The translations under genes were made by a program, and so were the position numbers. Below are positions 3,001 through 50,393 of a stretch of DNA of 50,696 bases, piece by piece. The DNA lies in NCBI RefSeq assembly GCF_000003605.2, contig NW_003147782.1, forward strand, positions 106,724-157,419. The letters run 5' to 3'. The stretch is from Saccoglossus kowalevskii (Eukaryota > Hemichordata > Enteropneusta > Harrimaniidae). Under the pieces are notes generated by a model, which saw nothing but the letters and a program-made list of their open reading frames with translations, was not told the origin of the DNA and made no database searches. Each line of letters begins with the position of its first letter. Positions within the stretch are counted from its first letter, which is position 1.

Positions 3001-3275
3001 TATTCTATGTGCGAATTTATAACAGCTTTTTCATACTGTATCTGATTTTTAGGGTATTGGGGCCGCAATCAGCGCCCGACATATGAATATACAATGAACC
3101 ATTAGAAAAAATCTTGACAAATATGCATAAAATATTAAGTATAATACAATACAAAAATACCATTTTTACAAGATACAACACAGAATGGGTGTACATCATT
3201 TACGCCGCAAAATGAGTTGACCAAGTACTGTAGCAAAATGCATATTATTTTTTTACATATCAGTTACCTGATAAA

Positions 3276-3440
3276 TTAAAGCGGGAGGGTCGTCCCCTGC
3301 GCACGCGCGGGAATTGAGTCCCAAGCGATGATAACAACAGACGATAAAAACGGAAAGGCTTATGAGCAGACGCTTGTTTGTAAACAATGATACGCTATGG
3401 TCATCTGGCGCATGCGCAGGTGAAGACTCCCCCGCTTTAA
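3276..3440. mobile_element. piggyBac-type MITE, copy 1 (TTAA-flanked)
   Basis: A 165-bp segment starts TTAAAGCGGGAGGGTCG and ends GACTCCCCCGCTTTAA. Imperfect terminal inverted repeats run inward through a GCGCATGCGCAG / CTGCGCACGCGCG core. TTAA at both ends is the target site of the piggyBac superfamily. A second copy at 44514-44673 shares both ends and most of the interior. No coding capacity; a non-autonomous element. Confidence 0.8.
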
Positions 3441-9150: not shown

Positions 9151-10520
9151 TATTATTAAATACTGATGACAATTGCGTCCACAATGCCATGCCATGTTAA
9201 AAAATTCAGGTCACGTGGGTATTCAAATCTCACAGGAACTTTTAAATTTATTTTCACTTTTGTATGCAGATGATGTGACCATTTTTAGTGATTCTCCTAT
9301 TGGCTTACAGAGACTTCTGTCGATTTTGGAAAAAAATTGTACACTTTGCAAAATGTCGGTAAACTTAAGTAAAACAGAAATTATAGTTTTTAGACGCGGG
9401 GGCATTGTTAAGAAAAGTGAAAACTGGGCTTTTGGAGGAACACGGATTAATACAGTGAGTTACTACAAATACCTTGGTTTATTGATCTCTAGTAGACATT
9501 CATGGTCAATGGCTGTAAATACATTAGCAAGACAAGCACAAAAAGCGATGGGGGCAATTTTTCGCATGATACATAATACTGGGAGTCTTCCATATAATGA
9601 TTATTTTAAATTATTTGATGGTATGATTTTACCAATTGAGTTACGGATCAGAGATATGGGGACATAATAGGTATCAGGTAGTAGAAAGAGCCCAGTTAAA
9701 ATATGCAAAGCTTTTTTAGGAGTTAAGTCATCCACATCCGACGTTGCAGTACTCGGAGAGTGTGGTAGATACCCCTATATAATTATACAGTCAAAAAGTG
9801 TATGAAATACTGGCTAAGACTATTAACCATGCACCCAAGTAGAGTTTCTAAGCAAGCTTATAATCTTGATAAAAATGACAGAATGTCATAGGCAACACAC
9901 ATAAAATCTATTCTTTTTGAGTTTGGTTTTGGTGAAGTGTGGTTTTGGCAGGGTCCTGGTGACCCTGAAGCCTTTCTCTGTCAATTCATGTCAAGGGCAA
10001 ATGATATTTTTAGACAAAATTGGAGAGCGGAGGTGTGTACAAAAGACAAACTACGTACATATTGTAATTTCAAAGTCCTATTCCAGAGGGAAGATTATTT
10101 ATTATTTATTAGTAATGTTAAATTGAGAAGAACATTATCATGCTTTAGATGTTCCAGTCATGTATTGGCAATAGAGGGCGACAGGGTCATGGGGCTTGAC
10201 ATTGATTATAGACTTTGTCAAGTCTGTGACATGATGGAAGTAGAGGACGAATATCATTTCATTATGATATGTCCTCTGTACGAGATGCTTAGAAAGCGGT
10301 TCATTCCCATTTGGTCTTATACAAATCCGTCTGTAAATAAGTTTTATTCTTTAATATCATGTAATTCATTTGAAATTATTAGTAACTTAGCTGTTTTTAT
10401 TCAAAATGCATTTAAGTTGAGACAAGATGTACTTGACCTATGACCAAAGATTTGTTGCATCAGTATTGTAATAAGCAAAAGGGGCCAGTGAGTGGCCTAT
10501 AAGAGCAAATACAATATATA
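9150..10520 (+). mobile_element. 5'-truncated non-LTR retrotransposon (LINE), decayed
   Basis: A LINE fragment in the sense direction of the host gene, inside its 18-kb intron. The first frame (9173-9667) starts just before the catalytic YADD box (FSLLYADDVTIFSD) and continues with NLSKTE and YKYLGLLIS, typical of the reverse transcriptase palm and thumb. The upstream fingers, the rest of the palm and any endonuclease are missing, as expected from 5' truncation. After a frameshift near 9660 and a stop near 9890, a second frame (9937-10443) carries the C-terminal Cys/His region: FRCSSH, then CQVCDMMEVEDEYHF and MICPLY. A short 3' tail with a GGCC-AGTGAGT-GGCC hairpin follows the stop. It cannot encode active protein. 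I do not assign a clade. Confidence 0.88.
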
Positions 10521-23006: not shown

Positions 23007-23556
23007 CAAGTCAAAAGAAGACAGGTTATCTACCTTTACAATATTTATATTGCAACTATAACTGTAGGTACAAGTCAAAAGAAGACAGGTTATCTACCAT
23101 TACAGTATTTATATTGCAACTATAACTGTAGGTACAAGTCAAAAGAAGACAGGTTAGCTACCTTTACAGTATTTATATTGCAACTATAACTGTATGTACA
23201 AGTCAAAAGAAGATAGGTTATCTACCATTACAGTATTTATATTGCAACTATAACTGTAGGTACAAGTCAAAAGAAGACAGGTTATCCACCTTTACAATAT
23301 TTGCAACTATAACTGTAGGTACAAGTCAAAAGAAGACAGGTTATCCACCTTTACAATATTTGCAACTATAACTGTAGGTACAAGTCAAAAGAAGACAGGT
23401 TATCTACCTTTACAATATTTGCAACTGTAACTGTATGTACAAGTCAAAAGAAGACAGGTTATCTACCTTTACAATATTTACAACTATAACTGTAGGTACA
23501 AGTCAAAAGAAGACAGGTTATCTACCTTTACAATATTTGCAACTATAATTGTAAAA
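23007..23556. repeat. minisatellite, 9 units in two size classes (64 and 59 bp)
   Basis: Each unit begins CAAGTCAAAAGAAGACAGG and ends in a CTGTAGGTA-like string. Units 1-4 (starts 23007, 23071, 23135, 23199) are 64 bp. Units 5-9 (starts 23263, 23322, 23381, 23440, 23499) are 59 bp because ATATT is missing in TTTATATTGCAAC. The two classes are not intermixed. Confidence 0.95.
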
Positions 23557-35036: not shown

Positions 35037-36260
35037 ATGATATCACATTCCATGATATTGTTCTAACAAACGCTTTTCGTACATTTGCTTAAATGTGTGG
35101 AAAGATTTACAATTTTTCAGATTATTATCAATACTGTTCCAAATGTTGACGCCAGCACAAGATAAACACATAGCTTTTACCCTAGCCCTTCTGTAAATAG
35201 TACCAACATTCTGACATTGTCTTGTATTGTACTCATGGATATTACATATTTTAACAAAATACTGTTGAACACTCAAAGGTAATTGATTTGTATTTGCTTT
35301 ATAAAGAACTATTACTGTTCTTAATTTAATAATGTCATATATATTTAAGGTTTTAAACTTATAAAAATAGGTTTTGTATGACTACTATACTCTGCTTTTG
35401 TCACCACTCTTATAGCTGTTTTTTGAAACAAATATAAGCTTTTCAATGTTGATTTGTACGTGTTGCCCCACACTTCACAGCAATATGTGATATATGGGAT
35501 TATTAATGATTGATATAAAGTATATAAAACAGAGCTATCAAGCAAGTATTTCATTTTATACAGTATACACATATTTTAGTCTGTATTATTCTAGCATGTT
35601 CCTTCCATCCTAGTTTACAATCAATTATCACCCCAAGAAATTTGGTTGAATAAACACGCTGAATTACTCTGTTATTGATTTTTAAAGACACATCATCTCT
35701 TACCTCTTTGCAAGAAAATGTGATGTAATTTAACAAATTTAAAGACAACTTATTTACTACAAACCATATCTGCACATGTTCAAGCTCTTGAGATACAGTT
35801 GCACATAATTGTCTCAAGTTTTTACCTGAACAGAAGATATTGGTATCATCTGCGTATAAAATAAAATTTAACATTTAGAAACATTACAAATATTTACATT
35901 TAGGATAAAAAGTAAAGAACCTAGGATTGAACCCTGGAGCAAGCCACAACATATATTTTCTAAAGAAGAATCAGCGCCCTCTATTGATACCAACTGCTTT
36001 CTATTACTTAAGTAATTACAAATCCAATCTGACGTAATTCCCCTTATCCCATACCATTTCAGTTTCTTAACAAGTATTTTATGATCTATTGTATCAAACG
36101 CCTTTTTCACGTCTATAAAGACCCCAACCGTATATAAGCATCCATTGCATTTGTAATGTCTTTTGTCAAATGTTTTATGACATACGTGGCCGGGTATTAC
36201 TTGCATTGTGTAGCATTCTTTAAACTGTTGTTCTTTGTTAAATTGCATCTTGTTATAATG
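35037..36260 (-). mobile_element. decayed non-LTR retrotransposon (LINE), minus strand
   Basis: Read on the minus strand, four overlapping frames cover a reverse transcriptase. 36248-35868 has GVFIDVKKAFDTIDHKILV, GIRGITSDWICNYLSNRKQ and LLQGSILGSLLF. 35874-35551 starts just before the catalytic YADD (ILYADDTNIF) and has NKLSLNL and KFLGVIID. 35572-35345 and 35276-35043 carry the thumb and C-terminal YNTRQ...WNSI...F.TFK region. The frames change at about 35870, 35560 and 35300, so no intact protein can be made. The N-terminal endonuclease is absent. I do not assign a clade. Confidence 0.9.
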
Positions 36261-36353
36261 TAATTAAAAGCTGGATATAATACTTTTTTCATGAAGCACT
36301 CGATCAGTGACAACAATGTATGTCGCCCTCTCTGTCAAGATCATGGCTAGGGA

Positions 36354-37944: not shown

Positions 37945-38711
37945 TTATCCTCTTACAACTTGGGAGGGCCCGATCCAATTGTGCAACTTGGTCCAAAATG
38001 GTTGTTGCTTTCTTTGAAGACCAAGCCTTGACAACAAGGCATTTACATTTTCACCTCCTCCATTCCATTCAATGCAATGGTTTAATTCCAGTAACATGGG
38101 AACTGCGCATTCTTTATACTTAATAACTAATAAAGAATCCTTTTCGGCCTCACTGGAGAACTGCAGATTCACTGCCAAAAATAACTCATACCGAAGACAA
38201 TATATGTCCTTCAGGAAATCGGGTGAAAATACGGCTATAAACTTGTGACTTCCCATAATTCCATCATTTGATCGCTTTAGTCTCAATCCCCCAACTNNNN
38301 NNNNNNNNNNNNNNNNNNNNNNNNNNNNNNNNNNNNNNNNNNNNNNNNNNNNNNNNNNNNNNNNNNNNNNNNNNNNNNNNNNNNNNNNNNNNNNNNNNNN
38401 NNNNNNNNNNNNNNNNNNNNNNNNNNNNAACTGCAGATTCACTGCCAAAAATAACTCATACCGAAGACAATATATGTCCTTCAGGAAATCGGGTGAAAAT
38501 ACGGCTATAAACTTGTGACTTCCCATAATTCCATCATTTGATCGCTTTAGTCTCAATCCCCCAACTTTTGAGTCACGAATGTCCAAGAAAACCTTTAGAC
38601 CCCACTCTGTCTCCATTTTACGAACTAGAGTATCAACAACGAACTCTTCATCTTGTTCACAGTATGATACGTAAACATTATAGAGAAGATCCTCTGATTT
38701 GTCTAGGAAGT
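37945..38711 (-). CDS. TIR-domain terminal exon, receptor copy 1 (contains an assembly artefact)
   Basis: The exon starts after a TTTGTTCTTAG acceptor in phase 1 and ends with the stop at 37945. It encodes a complete TIR signalling domain: box 1 LLYNVYVSYCEQDEEFV, box 2 VFLDIRDSKVGG, a central SHKFIAVFSPDFL strand and YELFLAV helix, and box 3 QPFWTKL near the C-terminus. TIR domains of Toll/IL-1 receptors recruit MyD88-type adaptors in the cytoplasm. As assembled the middle appears twice, on either side of 132 Ns. Dropping the artefact gives the length and order of the second copy, about 168 residues. The proline usual in box 2 (RDxxPG) is valine-glycine here. Its upstream transmembrane exon is broken by a MITE, so this domain may no longer reach the membrane. 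Confidence 0.88.
38159..38566. other. duplicated contig ends flanking an N gap (assembly artefact)
   Basis: Bases 38159-38296 (138 bp) recur without a difference I can see at 38429-38566. They are separated by 132 Ns (38297-38428), an offset of exactly 270 bp. Two contigs ending in the same sequence were probably placed side by side instead of merged. 270 is a multiple of 3, so the false duplication keeps the reading frame and yields a misleading, longer protein. Confidence 0.88.
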
Positions 38712-39190
38712 CTAAGAACAAACAAAACAGTAGTTAACGATGAAATGCACTTTTTAATTGTGTTTATTAATAAGCTATATGATAATGATATTAAATGCTG
38801 ACAAAGGGCGCCCTATCAGAGCTGGTTGCTCAAGAAACGGAACAGATTTTAGTCATGGGAATATGTTTAATTGTGCGTTTTGTTTTTAGCGCGAATGATG
38901 CTCCATATTAATGAGGTTTTTGGTTGACTAATATTCTAAGGCATAAGCCCAAATTGACAACGGCCTTGAGTGGGAACTGTCACAATGTTGGGGCCGAACA
39001 TATATTTTTTTAATAAAAAATTCTCGTGATCGTGAACGGGTACCCAATCTTCTTTTCTCATTGCCACCTACATCCCAACATCACTTAATTTGTTATCGGA
39101 TCTAGAGAAATTTCCGATGTTTAAATACTTCTATACTGAGTAGTATGTCACGGTTGCACGACTTCTGTTACTGTTATAATGACTACTTAC

Positions 39191-39684
39191 TACGATTCTC
39201 AGCAGGTTCCAATTCTATTATTTCCTTTAACGTTGCTAGTTTATTCTGTCGGAGTTTTTTCCTTAGCCAACTGCAGAACACCATCTTGGTATCCTCGGGG
39301 GCGGAGCTACGTCACGGACGTTCTACGTTAAGACGCGCACCACTGTACCACGTATTTCTATGGGCTTTGTGCGCGCTGCTGTGGAACGCCGGTGGAGCCG
39401 GTGAAAACTCGAGAAAACAACACAAACTCAACTTTGAAGTAATCCTGAACAACCAAATGCATATATGTTACACTCGTAGGGCTAATCTCGTTACATTGTT
39501 CAGGGGACTCTCAACAACCATCGCAAAGTACCGTTTTCTGCGAGTTTTTGGTCTTTGTTTTCACCGCGAGGGTTGCCAGGCGGTAGAAAATGCCCGGATG
39601 TCCGCCCCCGAGGATACACAATAACACTAACAACAACCACAATGACTAGTGTTATCTTATATAACATCAGTGACATCATGTAAC
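39191..39684 (-). pseudogene. transmembrane exon of receptor copy 1, split by a MITE
   Basis: Minus strand, from acceptor CTTCCTGTACAG (exon start 39684) to donor GTAAGT (exon end 39191), phase 1 at both ends. The first part encodes a hydrophobic helix (YKITLVIVVVVSVIV). The last part (from about 39290 down) encodes MVFCSWLRKKLRQNK and LATLKEIIELEPAENR, the basic juxtamembrane linker to the TIR exon. A 323-bp MITE (39292-39614) lies between them. Read in frame, the helix runs about 38 codons into the MITE and stops at a TGA (39502-39500). The linker is also 2 bp short relative to copy 2. The result would be a membrane-anchored receptor without a TIR domain, or a dead gene. Confidence 0.8.
39292..39614. 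mobile_element. 323-bp TA-flanked MITE inside the transmembrane exon
   Basis: The element begins TCCTCGGGGGCGGA and ends with the exact reverse complement TCCGCCCCCGAGGA. TA lies on both sides (39290-39291 and 39615-39616), the target duplication of Tc1/mariner-type elements. The paralogous exon at 49704-49862 lacks it and shows the uninterrupted site. The + frame 39145-39624 crosses it and is not a gene. Confidence 0.85.
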
Positions 39685-39971: not shown

Positions 39972-40167
39972 CTCGTTTTTCAAAAGCAATGGGTTCTATT
40001 GGCCATACTGGTCCGAATAAACGCCCATCATACATACATGTGTAGTCTCTATAATCCTTGGCACTAAATATATCAGCTGCAAATTTAAAGACACCCATTT
40101 TGTCAAATTTCTCTCTAGTCAAATTAAATTCTTCAATGTCCAATCGATGGATGTTATTGCCATTTGC
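39972..40167 (-). CDS. immunoglobulin half-domain exon, receptor copy 1
   Basis: This 196-bp minus-strand exon starts at acceptor TTCATCATAG in phase 0 and ends at donor GTACGT in phase 1. That matches the phase-1 start of the transmembrane exon 287 bp downstream. It reads FDKMGVFKFAADIFS, then AKDYRDYTCMYDG and PVWPIEPIAFEKR. D-Y-x-x-Y-x-C is the F-strand signature of an Ig domain, and the residues after it form the last strand leading to the membrane. In the IL-1 receptor family each Ig domain is also commonly split over two exons. With the TIR exon this defines an Ig-transmembrane-TIR receptor. The first half of this Ig domain is not securely located. Confidence 0.68.
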
Positions 40168-43140: not shown

Positions 43141-44513
43141 AAATACATTTGTGAAGCTCTTTATCTGGGATTATCATTATGTTGGTTGTCTTAACTATTT
43201 TCTTTTAACTCACCGGATGCATTTCGACTTGGATAACTGGATGTACAAAGTTGCGTACTTAACCGATTGCAGTATGAGGAATGCAAGACACTGTCTGGCT
43301 GTCTGGCTGGCTTCCTGGCTGGCAACCGTCGGGAACTGAGACTGAGCGGGAAAGAACCACGGACGCAAAATATACATCTAGATGGATTAAACTATTTTAC
43401 ACTTAGGTAGAAAACAGTAATAAACATATGCAAATGTACGGTTTGTACAGACCACAACCACCCAAGCGAATAAATGGTTTAATCTCAATATGTTGCAATT
43501 ATTTGTTAAATTGTAATGATTAACAATAAAATTGCTGCACGGTTTCCATACAATGTAGCAATATATCGATAGTTTTTTTTCCGGTAAACAAGGTTCAACT
43601 CAGGATGTCACTATCCGATCATTGACCGACCTCGATTACTGTCGGACGCAACACATTTTCAAACTGAATGCGTGCTCGGATACAGCTGGAACGGAGAGCC
43701 GGGCGTTTTGACCGTTATTGCGCGCGAGTAATAGGTTTGACTAGCGCCACCAACGGCGCGAAATTATGTTTTTATATAAATGCGGAAGTGATGCGGTATT
43801 TTCTTTTTGTGTTTTTTTATAATCTTGGGCAAAAATCATAATTTAAAGTGATGAACTGATATGCAGGTCTCAAATGCAACGAAGTCATATTGGCTTAAGA
43901 TCAAAAATTAAACGATTACAATTTACAGTGACCTTCGTGTTCACCTTTCAAAATCAAAACATCAAATTTGGCGTTTTTGTAAGTGTCACATTTTTTTTTT
44001 ATAAAAACACTTTTTCATTTTCTGTTTTGACTCGGACAAAAAATTTTTGAATTAAAAATTACAATTTTGACCTTTGCACTAGCGAGCATGACAAACCACT
44101 ATATATCCACTGACCGTGACGGCGTTGCCCGGCATGACGTGCTTTTCGAGCGGTCTCAGAATCTCTCAGTGTTTGGCTGTCTTCTCGCCGAGAGAAATCA
44201 GTATTGCTCACCAAACGTATTGTGGTATTTTGGGTCACGTTGAGGGTTTCAGTGTATTTTGCTTTATTCGTCCTCAACTCTGGGTCAACGTACATGGTGA
44301 TGTGTACATGGTACACGTTTATTTTCCTGGGCCGGAATTTCTTAATCTGGAGTTGATTCCTAAATCAAGTAAAAAACTATATCGCAATTTTACAATGCCA
44401 CATCTTCCTGGGTTAATATTAGAAAATTTACATTTTGTTGGGGTTCGGTCTGTCTCTTAAAGTGTTCACACTAAAATGTTGTTAGGATGAAAGAGTCGCA
44501 AATGTGAACGTAA
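43141..44513. other. unassigned region with one coding-like minus frame
   Basis: The minus-strand frame from about 44340 to 44059 reads HVHITMYVDPELRTNKAKY, then LNVTQNTTIRLVSN, with two N-glycosylation sequons and alternating hydrophobic residues suggestive of beta strands. A possible acceptor (CGGCCCAG) lies upstream. No family is recognised and no cysteine is present before residue 70. It is upstream of receptor copy 1 on the same strand, so an ectodomain exon is conceivable. The overlapping + frame 44116-44460 is not recognised either. Confidence 0.2.
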
Positions 44514-44673
44514 TTAAAGCAGGAGGGTCGTCACCTGCGCACGCGCGTGAATTGGGTCTCAAACGATGATAACACACACACAAACGCAAAGGCTCATGGG
44601 TAGACGCTTGTTTGTAAACATTGAAACGCTATGGCCATCTGACGCATGCGCAGGTGGCGACTCCCCGCTTTAA
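44514..44673. mobile_element. piggyBac-type MITE, copy 2 (TTAA-flanked)
   Basis: A 160-bp element starts TTAAAGCAGGAGGGTCG and ends GCGACTCCCCGCTTTAA. It is collinear with the copy at 3276-3440, sharing GACGCTTGTTTGTAAACA, GCTATGG.CATCTG and GCGCATGCGCAGGTG-type ends. Differences are substitutions and small indels, including a CACACACACA run here. Confidence 0.82.
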
Positions 44674-48730: not shown

Positions 48731-49218
48731 TCATTCTCTTACAACTTGGGAGGGCCCGACCCAATTGTGCAACTTGGTCCAAAATGGTTGTTGCTTTCTT
48801 TGAAGACCAAGCCTTGACAACAAGGCATTTACATTTTCACCTCCTCCATTCCATTCAATGCAATGGTTTAATTCCAGTAACATGGGAACTGCGCATTCTT
48901 TATACTTAATAACTAATAAAGAATCCTTTTCGGCCTCACTGGAGAGCAGCAGATTCACTGCCAAAAATAACTCATACCGAAGACAATATATGTCCTTCAG
49001 GAAATCGGGTGAAAATACGGCTATAAACTTGTGACTTCCCATAATTCCATCATTTGATCGCTTTAGTCTCAATCCCCCAACTTTTGAGTCACGAATGTCC
49101 AAGAAAACCTTTAGACCCCACTCTGTCTCCATTTTAAGAACTAGAGTATCAACAACGAACTCTTCATCTCGTTCACAGTATGAAACGTAAACATCATAGA
49201 GAAGATCTGCTGGTTTGT
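48731..49218 (-). CDS. TIR-domain terminal exon, receptor copy 2 (intact)
   Basis: The exon begins after acceptor TTTGTTCTTAG in phase 1, joins the transmembrane exon at 49704 (phase 1) and ends with a TGA at 48733-48731. About 162 residues form a full TIR domain: box 1 LLYDVYVSYCERDEEFV (residues about 6-22), box 2 VFLDIRDSKVGG (about 43-54), SHKFIAVFSPDFL and YELFLAV with the conserved glutamate, and box 3 QPFWTKL near the C-terminus. It acts in the cytoplasm, by family, as an adaptor-binding signalling domain. It differs from copy 1 at few positions, for example D/N and R/Q in box 1 and LLS/QFS after the central helix. The box 2 proline is replaced by valine, as in copy 1. No internal stop or frameshift. 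Confidence 0.92.
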
Positions 49219-49703: not shown

Positions 49704-49862
49704 TACGATTCTCAGCAGGTTCCATTTCGATTATTTCCTTTAATGTTGCTAGTCTTTTCCGTCGGCGATTTCTTCTGTACCACCTGCAGAACGCCATTTT
49801 GGTAAATACAATAACACCAATGCCTATTATTATCGTACAAAACTTCTGCGACACCATGTAAC
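49704..49862 (-). CDS. transmembrane and juxtamembrane exon, receptor copy 2
   Basis: This 159-bp minus-strand exon lies between acceptor CCTCTTGTACAG and donor GTA/GTAAGT, phase 1 at both ends. It encodes YMVSQKFCTIIIGIGVIVF (membrane helix), then FCRWYRRNRRRKRL, a strongly basic stop-transfer segment, then LATLKEIIEMEPAENR, the linker to the TIR exon. It joins the TIR exon in frame. It is the uninterrupted counterpart of 39191-39684. The ectodomain exons lie beyond the window edge or have been lost. Confidence 0.78.
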
Positions 49863-50044: not shown

Positions 50045-50393
50045 ATTATACGTTATAGTCTCAGTTAATGAGAACAGATTTGCGAGACCGCAAGAACAAT
50101 GCAACCACGATATGTATACAACATAAAACAATGTAGACGGACAATCAGTAATACGAACAGTTCGTTTTTTACCTGCGAGAGTCCTCGTTAAATCAACACT
50201 ATGATGAAAAAAATTCTCAGCTGAAAACAAATATTTCAAACTGATTATTTGGGTCATGCGTGACCATAAAGTTATTATGCAATTCACAGAGAGACACACG
50301 TGTGACATGTACATTAGGTTCAATAAAACTGAATTAAAACAATACCACATTGCTGAAGGTTGGTTTTTCACAAGATGTTAAGTAATTCACAAC
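50045..50393. mobile_element. insertion of about 350 bp specific to the right copy
   Basis: The left copy reads TTTTCCTAAAA-TATATATGTATATGGCGAGAG, while here about 350 bp intervene between TTTTCCCTAAAA and TTTATGGCGAGAG. No terminal repeats were recognised, so the type is unknown. The minus frame 50371-50009 lies mostly within it. Confidence 0.5.

Follow-up and report, generated by a model that had tools for sequence, protein, structure and literature searches.

In the hemichordate Saccoglossus kowalevskii, a MITE splits the transmembrane (TM) exon in one member of a tandem pair of receptor genes. The reading that we favor, at a probability of roughly two in three, is that the insertion is young and that the copy carrying it (copy A) was recently hit and is probably disabled. 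Specifically, we propose that the TM exon of copy A offered a TATA target at which a young MITE, from an AT-duplicating family of high copy number, inserted. The main copy A transcript would then carry a premature stop codon, located 309 nt ahead of an exon–exon junction, and NMD would remove most of this transcript, with loss or strong reduction of function as the expected outcome. If copy A is disabled, signaling would therefore rest on the sister gene, copy B. On this reading the locus cleanly exemplifies the disruption, by a young mobile element, of one gene in a tandem pair of immune-type receptors, with both the reading frame and the empty site legible in the sister copy. It also illustrates how the frame of a paralog and a set of genomic copies can together settle a target duplication that is ambiguous from a single pair of ends.

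The two copies lie on the minus strand of the window, by which we mean the whole 50,696-nt stretch of DNA analyzed, at the end of its contig (NW_003147782.1, positions 106,724 to 157,419). Each comprises the last exons of one receptor, spanning about 36.8–39.9 kb in copy A and about 47.0–50.5 kb in copy B (Table 1). The TM exon of copy A has the acceptor TACAG/GTTACATG and the donor A/GTAAGTAG, and is of phase 1-1. Hydropathy places a membrane helix before the TIR exon in both copies, with a best 19-residue value of 2.56 in A versus 2.21 in B; the part of the exon that encodes the helix in A (39616–39684) is 12 nt, or 4 residues, longer than that of B, in frame and independently of the element. 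The TIR exon of copy B scores 42 bits against a Pfam TIR_2 cut-off of 28, and its top PDB sequence matches are the TIR domains of Toll-receptor-related 2, IL-1RAcP and TLRs. The exon preceding the TM exon in copy A has splice sites scoring 7.0 bits (acceptor) and 9.3 bits (donor) and contains the motif DYTCMYDG, which we take to be an Ig signature; a Pfam search of this ectodomain exon gave no Ig match, leaving the DYTC motif as the sole indication.

Table 1. Features of the two receptor copies and of the inserted element, in window coordinates
Feature	Position	Strand	Remarks
TIR exon, copy A	37945..38711	-	Acceptor at 38711 or 38702; aligned to B
TM exon, copy A	39191..39684	-	494 nt with the element; supported by splice-site scores and paralogy with 49704-49862
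Exon A after the insertion	39191..39290	-	Cytoplasmic juxtamembrane and linker codons; homologous to B
ATG in TIR frame past the element	39282..39284	-	A at -3, G at +4; homologous ATG in B
AT target-site duplication, one copy	39291..39292	.	
MITE	39293..39613	.	321 bp; ends CCTCGGGGGCGGA / TCCGCCCCCGAGG; from genomic copies and hairpin fold
In-frame stop inside the element	39500..39502	-	After 37 element-coded codons
AT target-site duplication, other copy	39614..39615	.	
Exon A codons before the insertion	39616..39684	-	Juxtamembrane and TM helix SLMLYKITLVIVVVVSVIV; from translation and hydropathy
Preceding exon, copy A	39972..40167	-	Ig-like by motif only; ends in phase 1
TIR exon, copy B	48731..49218	-	Pfam TIR_2, E 1.5e-10; acceptor 6.8 bits
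TM exon, copy B	49704..49862	-	159 nt, uninterrupted

Relatives of the receptor and of the element were sought throughout the 572 Mb of the genome. Copies A and B are the only close TIR paralogs in the assembly, where four further matches are 31–34% identical, and the assembly search found no second haplotype of copy A. No relative of A's Ig-like exon, such as one belonging to B, was found in the assembly at E 0.01. The contig that carries copy B stops with the window and the upstream exons of B are absent from the assembly, so that copy B is known from its last exons alone, a point that weighs against the favored reading. Other features of the window include about 350 nt in an intron of B (50047–50393) that are missing from A and have no inverted ends visible by eye, a tandem array of a 59-nt unit in about nine copies (23007–23553), a dispersed repeat pair that is 86% identical (3274–3440 and 44512–44673), and fragments of retrotransposon reverse transcriptase (Pfam RVT_1) at 9170–9667 and 35551–36263, the piece at 35551–35874 being below the curated cut-off. 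Rfam and tRNA scans of the window gave no matches.

A preliminary description of this DNA had reported an inverted-repeat insertion in the 494-nt exon at 39191–39684, and the sequence bears this out. The element at 39293–39613 begins with CCTCGG and ends with CCGAGG, and is bounded by perfect 17-nt inverted arms at 39289–39305 and 39601–39617. The window contains 16 perfect 17-nt inverted word pairs at a spacing of 50–1000 nt, compared with a mean of 0.0 in 10 dinucleotide shuffles of the window, and the pair formed by the element's arms is the only one of the 16 with a G+C content of at least 0.6. As a single strand, the element folds into a hairpin with z = -5.5, a value reached by 0 of 100 shuffles. 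Likewise, the identification of the insertion as a MITE splitting the TM exon is supported, its family having been found in the genome, and the paralogous exon at 49704–49862 does provide the empty site, the insertion being absent there.

The dimensions of the element and its target duplication, in contrast, had to be revised. The same description gave a 323-bp element with a TA duplication; excising 323 bp together with TA leaves an exon of 169 nt that is out of frame with copy B, whereas excising 321 bp together with AT leaves 171 nt (159 + 12), in frame with B. AT is also found on both flanks of 38 of 40 genomic copies, the one in copy A included, and on these two grounds a TA duplication is ruled out. 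The TA reading fits 25 of the 40 copies, as expected, because the favored target is TATA. A further possibility is that AT belongs to the element ends and that there was no duplication at all. The flanking sequences of the genomic copies suit this reading just as well, and it is disfavored because it places the empty site in A out of frame; the conclusion that AT is a duplication, not part of the ends, thus rests on the frame of one locus. The restored site in A would read GTG TAT ACC where B has GTA TTT ACC, and the exact site before insertion at copy A is predicted to have been GTGTATACC. A search with joined flanks, made against the fetched loci alone, returned no empty sites for the other 39 copies; the only match, at 81% across 289 nt, was to B, the paralog of A.

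The element belongs to a large and homogeneous family. A genome search with the whole exon gave 40 full-length scored matches at 95–100% identity, A's own copy included, as well as one short piece; these 40 were taken from 2140 first-look candidates. Exact matches to the 27-base end number at least 100 (48 forward, 52 reverse), with none for a reversed control. The two copies without AT on both sides, L036, flanked by AT/GT, and L044, whose ends are unplaced, were both scored as misses. Among the 40 copies, AT is preceded by T in 30, A in 9 and C in 1 (the C being that of L044) and followed by A in 34 and T in 6; one position further out, G or C is found in 28 of the 40 on either side, such that the favored target is (G/C)-T-AT-A-(G/C). 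Lengths are 321–325 in 39 of the 40, and their consensus is 324 nt long with terminal inverted repeats of 13 bp. One full copy (L043, C2167:75211-75628) adjoins a 76-nt piece of another copy.

The copy in A differs from the consensus by four substitutions and a 3-nt deletion, a distance of about 1.25%, and the median distance to the consensus among the 40 copies is 1.5%; because these are the 40 best matches to A's copy, chosen for closeness, the figures do not describe the age spread of the family. Nonetheless, the insertion must be much younger than the duplication that produced A and B, since 1.25% compares with 78 differing sites among 427 aligned in the intron between the TM and TIR exons of the two copies (18%).

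Shortness, terminal inverted repeats, a target duplication, many near-identical copies and the lack of a recognized transposase together mark the element as a MITE, with a coding capacity of about 107 codons at most. A long frame on the plus strand, opposite to the gene, runs through A's copy (39106–39624, 172 aa stop to stop) and has no Pfam match. Because this plus-strand frame is open from end to end in 29 of the 40 copies, A's included, a short element-coded product is possible. From the ends of the element, we infer insertion at TATA driven by a transposase. No transposase bordered by CCTCGGGGGCGG ends was found at 20 of 62 DDE_Tnp_4 loci within about 1.5 kb on each side; one such locus, L055, contains a diverged copy of the element. 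The element had no match among phage records, nor its 20-base end among viral contigs, and no paper on the locus or on the element family was among the literature matches listed.

The consequences for copy A follow from its reading frame. As had been proposed, translation retains the helix and then terminates at the stop at 39502–39500; the count of element-encoded codons, previously given as about 38, is 37 in frame. The distance from this stop to the downstream donor of exon A is 309 nt. According to the exon-junction rule, a stop so far upstream of a junction marks an mRNA for decay, and NMD is therefore the default prediction for copy A. Beyond the stop, neither the codons that follow the insertion nor the TIR exon of A contain a further in-frame stop, and there is no frameshift either. 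This absence of further damage says little, because the insertion is young and the TIR exon has apparently undergone gene conversion.

The case for conversion comes from the uneven divergence of A and B. Only 1 of 58 four-fold sites in the TIR exon differs between the copies, compared with 78 of the 427 aligned in the intron (Fisher p 4e-4). Over the core of the TIR exon the copies agree at 380 of 385 aligned sites (about 99% identity), whereas the preceding intron and the TM exon are about 82–84% identical, and the 33 codons of exon A past the insertion show a dS of 0.27 and a dN of 0.16 relative to B. Recent gene conversion of the signaling exon would explain this pattern, and perhaps the converted tract covers part of the 3′ flank too. 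Within the TIR exon the copies differ by 2 silent changes and 9 replacements (dS 0.02, dN 0.024); these differences, which would have arisen since conversion, give no sign of constraint, although the counts are too small to judge selection. Hence, that the TIR exon of copy A is intact does not prove that it functions, as conversion with B suffices to explain the likeness. In the assembly, this exon contains 132 N and an exact 138-nt duplicate (38159–38296 = 38429–38566). The interval 38159–38566, a gap with a flanking duplicate, is an assembly artefact, and because of this break the linkage between the TIR and TM sides of copy A depends on scaffolding.

It is informative to consider what else copy A might produce. 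The alternative that survives best is that the truncated protein, consisting of the ectodomain, the helix and a 37-residue element tail that starts with PRGR, acts as a decoy, which we consider unlikely. Consistent with it, the helix is kept and has a hydropathy above that of B (2.56 versus 2.21), and an AATAAA at 39245–39240, which is downstream of the stop, inside exon A and without a counterpart at the corresponding position in B, could terminate the transcript ahead of the TIR exon. This signal, the one feature noted that might rescue the truncated mRNA, could yield a terminal exon that escapes decay. However, the position of the stop predicts decay, AATAAA and ATTAAA hexamers occur often in this region (8 within the 2.2 kb scanned), and the tail is ordinary element sequence, in a copy 1.25% from its consensus. 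A more elaborate version, in which the element would contribute a stop-transfer tail and, in combination with the AATAAA, a terminal exon, giving a stable TIR-less membrane receptor that dampens B while conversion keeps a dormant TIR exon, is very doubtful.

A second alternative, which we likewise regard as improbable, is that exon A is skipped and the Ig-like exon joined directly to the TIR exon, giving a protein without a membrane helix. Because exon A is of phase 1-1, its omission keeps the frame, and the joined sequence AFEKR-D(FLD)KSEDLLYNVYVSYC has no stop in the stretch printed with either acceptor. The splice sites of exon A argue against skipping: at 10.2 bits its acceptor is strong (rank 11 of 2457), and at 5.6 bits its donor is fair (rank 129 of 3167).

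A TIR-only cytosolic protein initiated from the ATG at 39284, with transcription perhaps driven by a promoter within the element, is highly improbable. This ATG had been pointed out as lying just past the element; it is indeed there and in frame, flanked by A at -3 and G at +4, but the element did not create it, because copy B has a homologous ATG. The G+C content of the element (0.51), its CpG observed/expected ratio (1.22 versus 0.90 in the window) and the GC-box and CRE-like motifs that it presumably offers as promoter elements would suit such a product. On the other side, the ATG is common to B, the stops that the element has in each of its three frames on the gene strand, together with upstream ATGs, would be expected to hinder scanning from the normal start, and the intactness of A's TIR exon is accounted for by gene conversion, not by selection on A.

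We give just as little credence to the idea that the element is removed as a new, introner-like intron, leaving a working receptor. Sites were scored with splice matrices, against a null of 400 shuffled elements. The right end is acceptor-like (CTCCGCCCCCGAG/GATACC, 6.3 bits, rank 110 of 2457) and forms an in-frame pair with a donor at 39631, and exon A contains 61 in-frame, stop-free pairs. Donors close to the left end, however, are very weak, at -1.6 and -3.3 bits. The highest-scoring in-frame pair reaches 7.65 bits, which 166 of 400 shuffled elements matched, while the two neighboring host introns total about 12–13 and 20 bits by the same site scores. With its best pair at chance level, introner-like splicing is unsupported. 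The flipped element gives a slightly higher best pair (8.3). The favored reading, then, remains that of a young insertion with probable loss of copy A.

Compared with known systems, the element shares with the MITEs of cut-and-paste DNA transposons its inverted ends, an AT duplication, the lack of a recognized transposase and a high copy number. Elements of the Tc1/mariner type duplicate a TA target; such an assignment is rejected here because TA fits 25 of 40 copies versus 38 of 40 for AT, and because TA breaks the frame. In the portions of the literature consulted, no named group has the S-T-AT-A-S target preference of the element. The ISL2EU group of PHIS transposons duplicates an AT dinucleotide at the target A-AT-T, according to the part of the source consulted (PMC4482050). 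The AT duplication is common to that group and to the element described here (38 of 40 copies), but our element mostly uses T-AT-A, and no transposase with its ends was found beside 20 DDE_Tnp_4 loci. Because the target given for ISL2EU in that part of the source differs, we do not file the element under that group. Introners, as described in the consulted part of another source (PMC9860276), share with it the form of a short inverted-repeat DNA element in a coding exon with an acceptor-like end, whereas our element is without a good donor and its best splice pair is at chance.

The receptor copies, for their part, resemble TIR receptors of the IL-1R and TLR type in having a helix and an intracellular TIR exon; they differ in that the ectodomain exon is unrecognized by Pfam and in that copy A reaches its TIR exon only through a change in splicing or a second start. 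The layout predicted from sequence for the truncated A protein would resemble that of known decoy receptors, IL1R2 among them. If the truncated form were expressed, copy A would be a decoy receptor caught at birth.
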